A DNA stretch of 35,526 nucleotides, taken from an uncultured bacterium. Its GTDB lineage: Bacteria; Planctomycetota; Brocadiia; Brocadiales; Scalinduaceae. Shown here piece by piece: positions 25,592 to 29,943 of this stretch. The translations under genes and the position numbers were made by a program. The notes below the pieces were generated by a model that worked only from the letters and a program-made list of their open reading frames with translations, had not been told where the DNA came from and ran no database searches. The stretch is taken from NCBI GenBank assembly GCA_913055705.1, contig CAJXKT010000008.1, forward strand, positions 1-35,526, written 5' to 3'. The first letter of the stretch is position 1, and each line of letters begins with the position of its first letter.

Positions 25592-26611
25592 TCAAAGAAA
25601 AGTAGTTTGTTTTTCAGTAATGGTCTTATGGCCCATGTATTCATATGCCAGTTGTGTTGCAACTCTACCTCTAGGTGTTTTGCTAAGATAGCCCTTCTGA
25701 ATCAGGTAAGGCTCGTAAACTTCTTCTATCGTATCTTCCTGTTCATTTACGGAAACGGCAATTGTTTTCAGGCCAATAGGTCCGCCTCCATGTTGAATTA
25801 TCGCCTGTAGAATTTTTCTATCTAAGTTTCCAAAGCCATCATTGTCCACTCCCAACATATCAAAGCCTAACTTTGTAATATTCTCTGTAATTTTGTTACT
25901 GCCTTTTACCTGTGCAACGTCCCTGATTCTTCTAATGAATCTATTTACAATCCTTGGTGTGCCCCTGGAGGATTTTGCAATCATCTCAGCACTTTTGTCA
26001 TCAATTTCAATTTTCAGTATTTTTGCAGATTTAATGGCAATCTCTTTCAATTCCGTCCATGGGTAGAAGTCCAATCTTTCCAGTACACCGAACCTGGCGC
26101 GAAAAGATGGCGTTAACAGCCCTTCGCGTGTAGTTGAACCTATAAGTGTGAAATTCGGGAGATTAATTTTGACAGACCTAGAGCTCGGGCCCTGGTCAAT
26201 CAAGATATCAATCGAATAGTCTTCCATTGCCGAATAGAGATATTCCTCTGTAGTTTTGTTCAATCTGTGAATTTCATCTATAAAAAGAATATCTCCCTGC
26301 TTCAAATTAGTCAGTATGCCGGCTAAATCGCCAGGTTTGTCAAGCACAGGGCCTGAGGTAGCTTTGATGTCTACATTGATTTCGTTGGCAATGATTTGTG
26401 AAAGTGTTGTCTTTCCTAATCCTTGCGAGCCTGAAAACAAAATATGATCAAGCACATCACCTCTTTTTTTTGAGGCTTCAATATAAATATGCAGGTTTTC
26501 TTTTATCGACTCCTGTCCAATGAAATCAGTAAATCTTTTTGGCCGCAGTGCGATATCAAGAGTCTTATCTTCAGGATCAACATCGCTGGAAAGGAAATTG
26601 TTGTCAGACAT
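25592..26611 (-). CDS. ruvB: Holliday junction branch-migration ATPase RuvB
   Basis: Hexameric AAA+ motor that drives Holliday junction branch migration with RuvA. The 339-residue product has Walker A GSQGLGKTT at 61-69, Walker B DEIHR (Asp112, Glu113), sensor-type GSTTREG and the winged-helix C-terminal domain (about 260-335, with RGRVATQLAYEY). Length is standard. The P-loop reads GSQGLGKTT rather than the usual GPPGLGKTT; the catalytic Lys is kept. It lies 47 bases downstream of ruvA and is followed by queH after four bases. The ribosome binding site at ATG 26611 is weak. Confidence 0.96.
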   Translation of the reverse strand: MSDNNFLSSDVDPEDKTLDIALRPKRFTDFIGQESIKENLHIYIEASKKRGDVLDHILFSGSQGLGKTTLSQIIANEINVDIKATSGPVLDKPGDLAGILTNLKQGDILFIDEIHRLNKTTEEYLYSAMEDYSIDILIDQGPSSRSVKINLPNFTLIGSTTREGLLTPSFRARFGVLERLDFYPWTELKEIAIKSAKILKIEIDDKSAEMIAKSSRGTPRIVNRFIRRIRDVAQVKGSNKITENITKLGFDMLGVDNDGFGNLDRKILQAIIQHGGGPIGLKTIAVSVNEQEDTIEEVYEPYLIQKGYLSKTPRGRVATQLAYEYMGHKTITEKQTTFL

Positions 26612-26658: not shown

Positions 26659-27246
26659 TTATACACGGCTTAAAGCATCTTTGATGAGCACTTCAACACC
26701 ATCTGAGACTTTAATGTTCCCGGAAGCTGAGTTTACGGCTTTTTCTGCTTCGGGCCTTGTATAACCGAGTGAAACCATCGCCATTATCGCATCTGAAACT
26801 ATTGCCATCTTCGCTGTGTCAGCAGAAGATACTGTTTCAAGTGAAATACTTTTTATAGTTTCTTTTAACTCTAATATTATTCTTTCAGCAGTCTTTTTTC
26901 CTATTCCCTTGATATGCTGTAGAGATTTTGGGTCATTCCCAACAACATATTTTTCAAATTGGCTTACAGAGCTGCTTGATAGTATCGTAAGCGCCATGTT
27001 TGGGCCTACACTGTTAACTGAAAGAAGCAAATTAAACAAGTCTCGTTCTTCCAGTGAAGAAAACCCATAGATTTTTAATTCATCATCTCTTATTGAGAGT
27101 TTTGTATATAATTTAGTGCTCTCTTTATTTGAAATCTTCTCAAATGTTGATAGTGGTATGTGTATTTTATACCCAATACCGTTGGTTTCTATTGTGGCAG
27201 TAGTAGGTGTTTTATGTACTATTTTACCATGAATATAATCAAACAT
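26659..27246 (-). CDS. ruvA: Holliday junction DNA-binding protein RuvA
   Basis: Binds the four-way junction and loads RuvB. The 195-residue product has the N-terminal OB domain (MFDYIHGKIVHKTPTTATIE and GIGYKIHIP), two helix-hairpin-helix DNA-binding segments (SVNSVGPNMALTILS and HIKGIGKKTAERIILELK) and the RuvB-binding domain III from about 150 (AIMAMVSLGYTRPEAEKAV). Full length. ruvB is 47 bases downstream. A ruvC gene is not visible. Upstream are 215 bases without a gene before the TPR/alpha-CTD stop. Confidence 0.95.
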   Translation of the reverse strand: MFDYIHGKIVHKTPTTATIETNGIGYKIHIPLSTFEKISNKESTKLYTKLSIRDDELKIYGFSSLEERDLFNLLLSVNSVGPNMALTILSSSSVSQFEKYVVGNDPKSLQHIKGIGKKTAERIILELKETIKSISLETVSSADTAKMAIVSDAIMAMVSLGYTRPEAEKAVNSASGNIKVSDGVEVLIKDALSRV

Positions 27247-27461: not shown

Positions 27462-28796
27462 TTATTCATTGTCGTTTCCGCTACAAAGTTTCAAACCAAG
27501 CTTATCAAACTGGTCGTTTATTTCATCAATATCTGCCTGCTTAAAACCCTTATGTTCCAAGAGTTCAGTTTCTGTTTTAGATACTAATTCGCCTATTGTC
27601 TGAATCCCCATCTTTTCAACAACCTTTTTACAGTGTTTGGAAATGTCCATTTCTGAGATAGGTGTTGACAAGTTATCTTCGTTTACACCGGGATCGTCAA
27701 TAAATATGTCATTGTGTTTCATTTCATCAACGGCTTGCCCAAGACGCAGGCCTTTTTGGTTAAGTATATTTGTTATCTCTGTTAATGAAGTTTCGCCAAA
27801 ATTTTTATATGATAATAGTTCAAGTTCGCTTACTTGTGTTAAATCTGCAAGAGTTTTTATATTCATACGTTCAAGGCAATTTTTACTCCTGACAGATAGT
27901 TCGAAATCTGAGATTGGAATATTTAAAACTTCGATTTCTATGTCGGCTTTTTTTACCTTATCATCATCGTAATGCATATTTATGCCGGCTCTTGAATCTT
28001 TGAGGTAAAGTTTTGCAATTTCGTGATTCGGATATGATTGTAAGACTGTTTCATAGCAAGAAACAGCTTTTTCATATTCACCGTTGTCTTCATATACAAT
28101 TCCCAGGTTAATCACTGCATTGGTGTATAGAGGAACTTCATCAATACATTTTTCATAGTATTCGAGTGCTTTTTCGTCTTCTCCGCTAAGGTCAAAATCG
28201 TAAGCAAGTCGAAATAAGGTGTCAGGGTGTGAGGGATTAATTTCCAGCGCACGATTATAATGTGTTAAAGCGTCTTCATCTTCGCCAAGATCATCAAGGC
28301 AATTTGCCCATTGGTAGTGAAGGCTGGCTTCGCCATCATATGCTTTTGATAATTTTTCAATTGATTTTAGCGCGCCTTGAAGGTCGCCGGACATTCTTTG
28401 TGTTTCAGCTATACCTATTAGTGTCTCAAACTCTTTTGTATCTGCCTGTTTCGACCGTTCGAAGTAATCGATTGCCTTTTCATAATCTTTAAGTTCTTGA
28501 TGGCATTTACCAAGAAAGTAACATGCAATCTTACGGGACTTCAGTTCGGTAAGTATTTCTATAGCTTCCTCCTGTTTCCCCGCAATCCAGAGGCATATAC
28601 CCAAGATTAATGTGTTCTCCTTTGCCTCTGCATCGTTAGTATTTTTGATAGAAGATCTGAGCGTCTTTAGGTTTTTTTCTAGTTGTTCATGATTCTCTTT
28701 AGTTGTGTAAACCTGTTTTTTTAATGTGTTTATATTCTCTATAGATAATTGATCTTGAGAAAAAGCTTCTTTGAAATCCAGTTCACTGCCTACCAT
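27462..28796 (-). CDS. TPR protein fused to two RNA polymerase alpha-CTD-like domains
   Basis: The 444-residue product has a helical N-terminus, about six TPR units (about 60-270) and two C-terminal helix-hairpin-helix domains of the RNA polymerase alpha C-terminal type. The first (291-353) reads ISDFELSVRSKNCLERM and NFGETSLTEI; against E. coli alpha-CTD it keeps the DNA-contacting Arg265 (Arg303 here) and Asn268 (Asn306) but has Glu-Thr in place of Lys297-Lys298. The second (378-436) is diverged and lacks the Arg. GGGGAG eight bases upstream supports ATG 28796. The combination suggests a DNA- or polymerase-associated regulator, perhaps competing for UP elements or activators; this is inference. 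I recall similar TPR/alpha-CTD proteins from planctomycetes. Confidence 0.88.
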   Translation of the reverse strand: MVGSELDFKEAFSQDQLSIENINTLKKQVYTTKENHEQLEKNLKTLRSSIKNTNDAEAKENTLILGICLWIAGKQEEAIEILTELKSRKIACYFLGKCHQELKDYEKAIDYFERSKQADTKEFETLIGIAETQRMSGDLQGALKSIEKLSKAYDGEASLHYQWANCLDDLGEDEDALTHYNRALEINPSHPDTLFRLAYDFDLSGEDEKALEYYEKCIDEVPLYTNAVINLGIVYEDNGEYEKAVSCYETVLQSYPNHEIAKLYLKDSRAGINMHYDDDKVKKADIEIEVLNIPISDFELSVRSKNCLERMNIKTLADLTQVSELELLSYKNFGETSLTEITNILNQKGLRLGQAVDEMKHNDIFIDDPGVNEDNLSTPISEMDISKHCKKVVEKMGIQTIGELVSKTETELLEHKGFKQADIDEINDQFDKLGLKLCSGNDNE

Positions 28797-28888: not shown

Positions 28889-28989
28889 TGGAAGGTGTCA
28901 TAAGTTTAGACAATCCACTAGTTTTACGTAAATAATTTATATCAAATATATTTCAAAATGCAAATGAAAATTTGTTGGGAATTAAAGGT

Positions 28990-29018
28990 TTGACTAATAC
29001 TTATGACTATGATATAGA
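28990..29018 (+). promoter_or_regulatory. Sigma-70-type promoter for kdsA
   Basis: TTGACT (28990-28995, 5 of 6) is followed after exactly 17 bases by TATAGA (29013-29018, 4 of 6). The leader to ATG 29122 would be about 95 bases. Confidence 0.55.
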
Positions 29019-29121
29019 TATACTTACACCTATAGTTAATCGAAAATTTCCGGAATCATGCCTTTCTTGATAAACTTTTAAGATATCCTCAAATTTCATT
29101 ATAAAAATAAATAGATTTGCC

Positions 29122-29943
29122 ATGAAAAACAAGTTTGAAGTAAAAGTAAATAACCTGGCCTTTGGAGATAAACATCCATTAGTCTTGATTGCAGGGCCAT
29201 GTGTAATTGAAACGGAAAAGGATTGTTGCAGTATTGCTGAGAAATTGAAAGATATAGCCTCCAAGGCAGGGATTCCATTCATTTTCAAGGCTTCATATGA
29301 TAAGGCAAACCGCACTTCTGTTAAGTCTTATAGAGGTCCAGGTGTTAAAAAGGGTATTAAGATTCTCGCAAAGATTAAGAAGCAATTCGGAGTGCCTGTC
29401 CTTTCAGATGTTCATTGTCGTAGCGAAATTGATATGGTAAAGGATGTCTTAGATATGATTCAAATACCTGCATTTCTTTGCAGGCAAACAGATTTAGTTC
29501 TACATGCAGCTAAAACGGGAAGGCCTATAAACATAAAAAAGGGGCAGTTTTTAGCCCCGTGGGATGTTAAAAACATAGCAGAAAAGGTGCTTTCAACAGG
29601 CAATAAGAATATAATATTTACTGAAAGAGGCACAATGTTTGGTTATAACAATCTTGTATCTGACATGCGTTCTATCGTCATTATAAGGGAGATGGGTTAT
29701 CCTGTTGTTTATGATGCTACACACAGTATTCAATTGCCCGGCGGAAAGGGTTCGTCCACCGGCGGGCAGAGAGAAATGATTGAGCCTTTAGCAAGTGCTG
29801 CTGTTGCCGTAGGTTGTGATGGGTTATTTGTTGAAACACATGAAAAACCCGGAAAGGCATTGTCGGATTCTGCGACAATGTTGCCGTTAAGGCAATTACT
29901 GCCTCTTATTAAGAAGGCAAAGAAGATACGCGAGTCCTTATAG
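29122..29943 (+). CDS. kdsA: 3-deoxy-D-manno-octulosonate 8-phosphate synthase, metal-dependent class
   Basis: Condenses phosphoenolpyruvate with arabinose-5-phosphate to make KDO-8-phosphate for the lipopolysaccharide core. The 273-residue product has the full metal-site set of the Aquifex-type enzyme at a constant offset: Cys27 (AGPCVIE), His201 (DATHS), Glu238 (FVETH) and Asp249 (LSDSA), so it is the metal-dependent class, not the E. coli-like class with Asn at the Cys position. KASYDKANRTS at 56-66 and QLPGG at 204-208 are also conserved. Presence of KdsA supports an outer membrane with KDO-containing lipid. It is followed by a small unknown gene about 100 bases downstream. Confidence 0.96.
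   Translation: MKNKFEVKVNNLAFGDKHPLVLIAGPCVIETEKDCCSIAEKLKDIASKAGIPFIFKASYDKANRTSVKSYRGPGVKKGIKILAKIKKQFGVPVLSDVHCRSEIDMVKDVLDMIQIPAFLCRQTDLVLHAAKTGRPINIKKGQFLAPWDVKNIAEKVLSTGNKNIIFTERGTMFGYNNLVSDMRSIVIIREMGYPVVYDATHSIQLPGGKGSSTGGQREMIEPLASAAVAVGCDGLFVETHEKPGKALSDSATMLPLRQLLPLIKKAKKIRESL

Follow-up and report, generated by a model that had tools for sequence, protein, structure and literature searches.

The C-terminal domain of the RNA polymerase alpha subunit (RpoA, PF03118) is the closest described relative of the domains presented here. In E. coli, residues D259 and E261 form the '261 determinant' that contacts sigma, the alpha-CTDs bind NusA as well as sigma, and their fold is a relative of the helix-hairpin-helix (HhH). 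Outside RpoA, alpha-CTDs occur in stand-alone proteins of the NCBIfam NF005841/PRK07758 type, which have about 95-135 aa, a single module and no tetratricopeptide repeat (TPR), while bacterial TPR proteins such as MamA and YrrB, both among our PDB fold matches, have a TPR superhelix and no alpha-CTD modules. In the window (the whole stretch of 35,526 nt that was analyzed, from an uncultured Scalinduaceae bacterium), we found a 444-aa protein that shares the superhelix with the latter and the alpha-CTD outside RpoA with the former. It differs from RpoA in having no alpha-NTD, two tandem copies of the CTD, and a helix which joins the CTDs to a TPR array. The domains are already known; what appears to be new is their combination, its phylum-wide presence, and a CTD under tighter constraint than RpoA's. 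In the papers that could be searched, we found no description of TPR joined to RNA_pol_A_CTD or alpha-CTD in planctomycetes, and the words tetratricopeptide and TPR are absent from the main text of the study of P. limnophila essential genes (PMC10632474). The parts of the gene are as follows.

27462..28796, minus strand: TPR + tandem alpha-CTD protein, 444 aa (ORF with stop; full-length orthologue matches across Planctomycetota)
28023..28634, minus strand: TPR array, residues about 55-258 (Pfam TPR families; AF2 helices)
27924..28022, minus strand: continuous helix bearing a conserved MxYDE motif, residues 259-291, from the last TPR to alpha-CTD 1 (AF2; orthologue alignment)
27738..27923, minus strand: alpha-CTD module 1, residues 292-353 (PF03118 score, site counts, fold match, dN/dS)
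27666..27737, minus strand: linker, residues 354-377, unconserved and partly of low confidence (15% identity; pLDDT <50 at 361-370)
27486..27665, minus strand: alpha-CTD module 2, residues 378-437 (PF03118 score, dN/dS, orthologue site counts)

Architecture, predicted fold and occurrence

In Pfam, the protein matched TPR_2 (E 2.6e-31) and, in two stretches, RNA_pol_A_CTD (E 1.7e-30). In a six-frame search of the genome with PF03118, module 1 scored 75.1 bits (27759-27938) and module 2 43.9 bits (27510-27683), both above the curated cut-off of 23.8 bits. The C-terminal 171 aa compared with the PDB by phmmer had only RNA polymerase alpha subunits among the matches listed (best E 1.3e-13), and the PHROGs comparison gave weak matches only. 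The whole-protein AlphaFold2 model (mean pLDDT 87.4) contained the TPR helices, mostly at about 85-97, and the continuous helix 259-291 running into module 1; the tandem 34-residue helix pairs seen by TPR_2 form a superhelix in this model. Because the whole-protein fold search returned TPR proteins among the best 50 matches listed, the alpha-CTD pair was modelled alone (residues 270-444, mean pLDDT 73.9, about 81-85 in both modules). The PDB fold matches of this model were alpha-CTDs at about 1 A rmsd, with a target TM of 0.72-0.92 for most isolated-domain entries, the stretch matched being one module of about 65 residues; module 2 is assigned as an alpha-CTD by its HMM score and its pLDDT of 81-85. 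These matches included alpha-CTDs on AT-rich DNA (9zum), with CAP and DNA (1lb2), and on UP/-35 DNA with sigma4 (3n97), and no unrelated or generic HhH protein was among the best 50. Therefore, the original prediction that a TPR scaffold carries genuine alpha-CTD modules was confirmed by Pfam, by the scores of both modules and by the predicted fold, the comparison of which with alpha-CTD had been set as a check beforehand.

Two annotations were rejected. RpoA itself was excluded by the missing alpha-NTD, the N-terminal half being TPR, and by an NCBIfam rpoA score of 104.5 bits against a cut-off of 227.8; the genome's own RpoA is separate, on another contig (G000:C1). Residues 372-437 (module 2) also matched positions 792-857 of the model of the BREX kinase PglW (NF033442, E 8.5e-9), but at 34 bits against a cut-off of 990 and without a kinase domain, and no BREX genes were seen beside the gene (ORFs at 22-34 kb). 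The match to an internal segment of NF033442 suggests an alpha-CTD-like module inside PglW.

The search for this architecture across planctomycetes, also proposed beforehand, gave a strong match (best E <1e-37, whole-protein query, table counted by hand) in 277 of 294 Planctomycetota genomes, and only 2 of the 155 good-quality genomes had no match at this level; some match was present in 294/294, the weak ones being explainable by RpoA on its own or by an ordinary TPR protein. All 61 members of our alignment (the window protein and named relatives) matched both the TPR and the alpha-CTD models. With the C-terminal part as query, 79 of the best 80 named matches belonged to Planctomycetota and one to an unassigned bacterium, the nearest being Candidatus Scalindua arabica (87% over the C-terminal part). 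In most of the 59 Brocadiales-centred and 52 other genomes, the alpha-CTDs numbered three, with a single one in RpoA and a pair in the TPR protein; a few genomes had one, two, four or five.

Other arrangements of the domain were also observed. The orthologues L019-L022 (Brocadiales, f2 genera g10 and g3) stop after module 1 with a short tail, module 2 having been lost. Some planctomycetes have, besides RpoA and the TPR protein, short stand-alone alpha-CTD ORFs (L222:2956-3261, minus strand, 101 aa; L223:2827-3228, minus strand, 133 aa). A same-genus genome (G301) has a 789-aa ORF (L226:897-3266, minus strand) of a different alpha-CTD architecture, in which two N-terminal alpha-CTD-like modules are followed by a segment like the helix-turn-helix of sigma region 4 (GVGGQPMTLEETGKRESITRERVRQL).

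Residues and constraint in the two modules

Module 1 is about 47-48% identical to the E. coli alpha-CTD over 65 aligned residues. The UP-element contact residues R265, N268, C269, G296, S299 and E302 (E. coli numbering) are all present in it as Arg303, Asn306, Cys307, Gly334, Ser337 and Glu340, the sigma-contacting D259 and E261 correspond to Asp297 and Glu299, and Thr336 occupies the K298 position. Among the 61 orthologues, R265 and G296 were found in 61/61, S299 and E302 in 60/61, C269 in 58/61, N268 in 57/61, E261 in 56/61 and D259 in 54/61; Thr at the K298 position (59/61) was also usual in planctomycete RpoA (47/48). Retention of the DNA-contact residues in module 1 had been predicted and was borne out, and the generic HhH protein without conserved Arg303 and Asn306, which had been named as the alternative, fails at 61/61 and 57/61.

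The RpoA CTD sequences for comparison were chosen without demanding Asn268. Within the same 47 genomes, mean pairwise identity was 67.3% for module 1, 55.5% for the RpoA CTD and 47.4% for module 2, and module 1 exceeded the RpoA CTD in 83% of pairs. Across the 61 orthologues, the mean was 66% in module 1, 49% in module 2 and 15% in the linker, 44% in helix 259-291, and 22%, 35% and 46% in residues 55-155, 156-223 and 224-266, the last TPR repeat (about 224-266) being the most conserved stretch of the array. Within Scalindua, module 1 had a dN/dS of 0.00-0.06, against 0.11-0.41 in module 2. Module 1 is thus under strong purifying selection; module 2, with its higher dN/dS and lower identity, is freer yet still under selection. 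As a separate observation, the RpoA CTDs L199, L174, L175 and L208 have His, Lys or Arg instead of Asn268, and genome G012 has lost this residue both from its RpoA CTD and from module 1 of its TPR protein.

Module 2 had been described as a copy which has lost the contact residues. This holds for the window protein, where His388 lies at the R265 position, Lys391 at N268 and the NFGxTS hairpin reads GFKQAD, so that the DNA-contact set is incomplete, but not for the family, in which R265 is kept in 58 of 59 orthologues while N268 is replaced by Lys or Arg in 51/59. Position 315 of module 2 is often Arg or Lys, and the mean charge of the DNA-facing side was +2.7 in module 2, +1.7 in RpoA and +1.0 in module 1. 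Judged by these residues, module 2 is, phylum-wide, a distinct basic variant and not a non-DNA copy. The Scalindua sequences form a series from LSTRCKN to LSKRC and then LSKHC and LSDEC, and His at the 265 position is a late change in some Scalindua. With module 2 decayed in the lineage of the window, the core role must rest on module 1.

In the CTD tree (61 columns only), module 1, module 2 and RpoA separated almost completely, both modules falling in groups apart from the planctomycete RpoA CTDs, and a single origin of modules 1 and 2 together was compatible with the tree (p 0.915, again on 61 columns only). Since the two copies form separate, internally coherent groups across the 61 orthologues, their split is old and phylum-wide, and most of the diversity sampled in the phylum seems to postdate the duplication. 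The proposal of a division of labour after duplication agrees with these groups.

Genomic surroundings

25592..26611, minus strand: ruvB, downstream on the same strand
26659..27246, minus strand: ruvA, same-strand neighbour 216 bp downstream
28941..29022, no strand assigned: intergenic block of 82 nt between the TPR protein gene and kdsA, kept in Scalindua-type loci
29122..29943, plus strand: kdsA, divergent neighbour

The gene adjoins ruvAB and is divergent to kdsA, as first noted. Such an upstream, divergent kdsA was present in only six of the 61 loci (that of the window and five others), while a downstream same-strand ruvA was present in 27/61, within about 700 bp in 26 of those and often at 8-80 bp, in distant families; spoIID, tgt and yajC had this placement in 22/61, 20/61 and 18/61 loci. 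The frequent position beside ruvA and ruvB, together with the kinship of the alpha-CTD fold to HhH, would suit a DNA-repair or chromosome factor in which the alpha-CTDs are general HhH DNA grips and the TPR recruits recombination proteins. We consider this unlikely, because ruvAB-queH-spoIID-tgt-yajC is a mixed housekeeping cluster, other lineages have other next genes (spoIID, tgt, or a type IV prepilin peptidase-like, protein kinase-like or radical-SAM-like gene), and the modules keep alpha-CTD-specific residues beyond a mere HhH motif.

A palindrome had also been reported between the TPR protein gene and kdsA; we found only weak, A+T-rich, imperfect inverted repeats there. In seven related Scalindua-type loci, the proteins of which are only 64-87% identical, the 82-nt block had 89-95% identity over 77-80 nt, and shorter pieces of it matched in four further loci. 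Its 34-nt core is single copy in the genome with up to 3 mismatches allowed. Inside the block, TTGACT-17 nt-TATAGA reads towards kdsA with an A+T-rich stretch upstream, and the block is probably a divergent promoter region, for kdsA and perhaps for the TPR protein gene. The intergenic region held 8 promoter-like sites against 8.2 in shuffled sequence, and no Rfam family reached its gathering score there.

Candidate functions of the protein

The original prediction had left a choice between a decoy, an UP-element binder and a polymerase tether, and among these the UP-element/sigma option fits best on sequence grounds, because module 1 retains the DNA-contact set together with D259/E261. Of the interpretation as a whole, the modules, the scaffold and the division of labour stand, and a module 2 that is generally non-DNA and the palindrome do not. 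From the DNA-contact set, the acidic pair for sigma contact, the selection on module 1 and the basic module 2, we infer, at somewhat less than even chances, a transcription co-regulator that binds DNA through alpha-CTDs detached from the polymerase and mounted on a TPR adaptor. The long helix at the end of the TPR superhelix would hold two tandem alpha-CTDs with a flexible linker between them, much like the tethering of the alpha-CTD pair in RNA polymerase. Module 1 would bind A+T-rich (UP-element-like) promoter DNA in the minor groove via the standard alpha-CTD residues and could offer D259/E261-type contacts to sigma region 4, and module 2, more basic in most of the phylum, would strengthen binding or supply a second subsite. 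Conservation of the last TPR and of the helix suggests that the partner is a fixed one, and this repeat may dock RNA polymerase, a regulator or some other housekeeping factor. The protein would bring this partner to promoters, or may compete there with the CTDs of RpoA itself.

Several points count against a co-regulator. Module 1 is close to neutral in overall charge, like its E. coli counterpart, and weak DNA affinity is therefore expected; in all UP-element recognition known to us the CTD is tethered to polymerase; the conserved DNA face may have a protein or a different nucleic acid as its ligand; and the common neighbour, ruvA, is no transcription gene.

Two further readings were weighed. 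As a decoy, the protein would titrate activators or regulators that dock on the alpha-CTD of RpoA, in line with E286 and E/D288 kept in module 1 beside the 287 determinant region, plus D259/E261. This seems distinctly improbable: position 287 is variable in module 1 (A, Q, N, S, P), the DNA-contact residues are among the best conserved and a pure decoy need not keep them, and gain and loss from lineage to lineage would be expected, yet retention is almost phylum-wide. A protein-protein adaptor whose alpha-CTDs bind, without a DNA role, to NusA, to sigma or to the ribosomal side of the coupling between transcription and translation would match the NusA and sigma binding of E. coli alpha-CTDs, the TPR as a classical peptide-binding scaffold and Glu at position 297 (53/61 in module 1, against mostly Lys, 34/48, in RpoA), but the joint retention of the Arg265, Asn268, Gly296, Ser299 and Glu302 equivalents is a DNA-contact pattern, and we hold such an adaptor to be just as doubtful as a decoy.

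Returning to the co-regulator, we further propose, as a possibility on which we would place rather low odds, that Planctomycetota hold a second, polymerase-detached alpha-CTD pair on a TPR adaptor which acts generally in promoter recognition or activator loading; RpoA and the TPR protein would then share the control exerted through UP elements and activators in these bacteria. The cell biology of planctomycetes is unusual and their transcription is poorly studied. The protein offers a testable handle, since it is the product of a single gene, has invariant residues that can be mutated, and occurs in a phylum with laboratory members amenable to genetics. Our results suggest a phylum with a built-in extra promoter-recognition or transcription-control factor, and, if this is true, the protein would be a new fixed part of the planctomycete transcription machinery, kept nearly phylum-wide.
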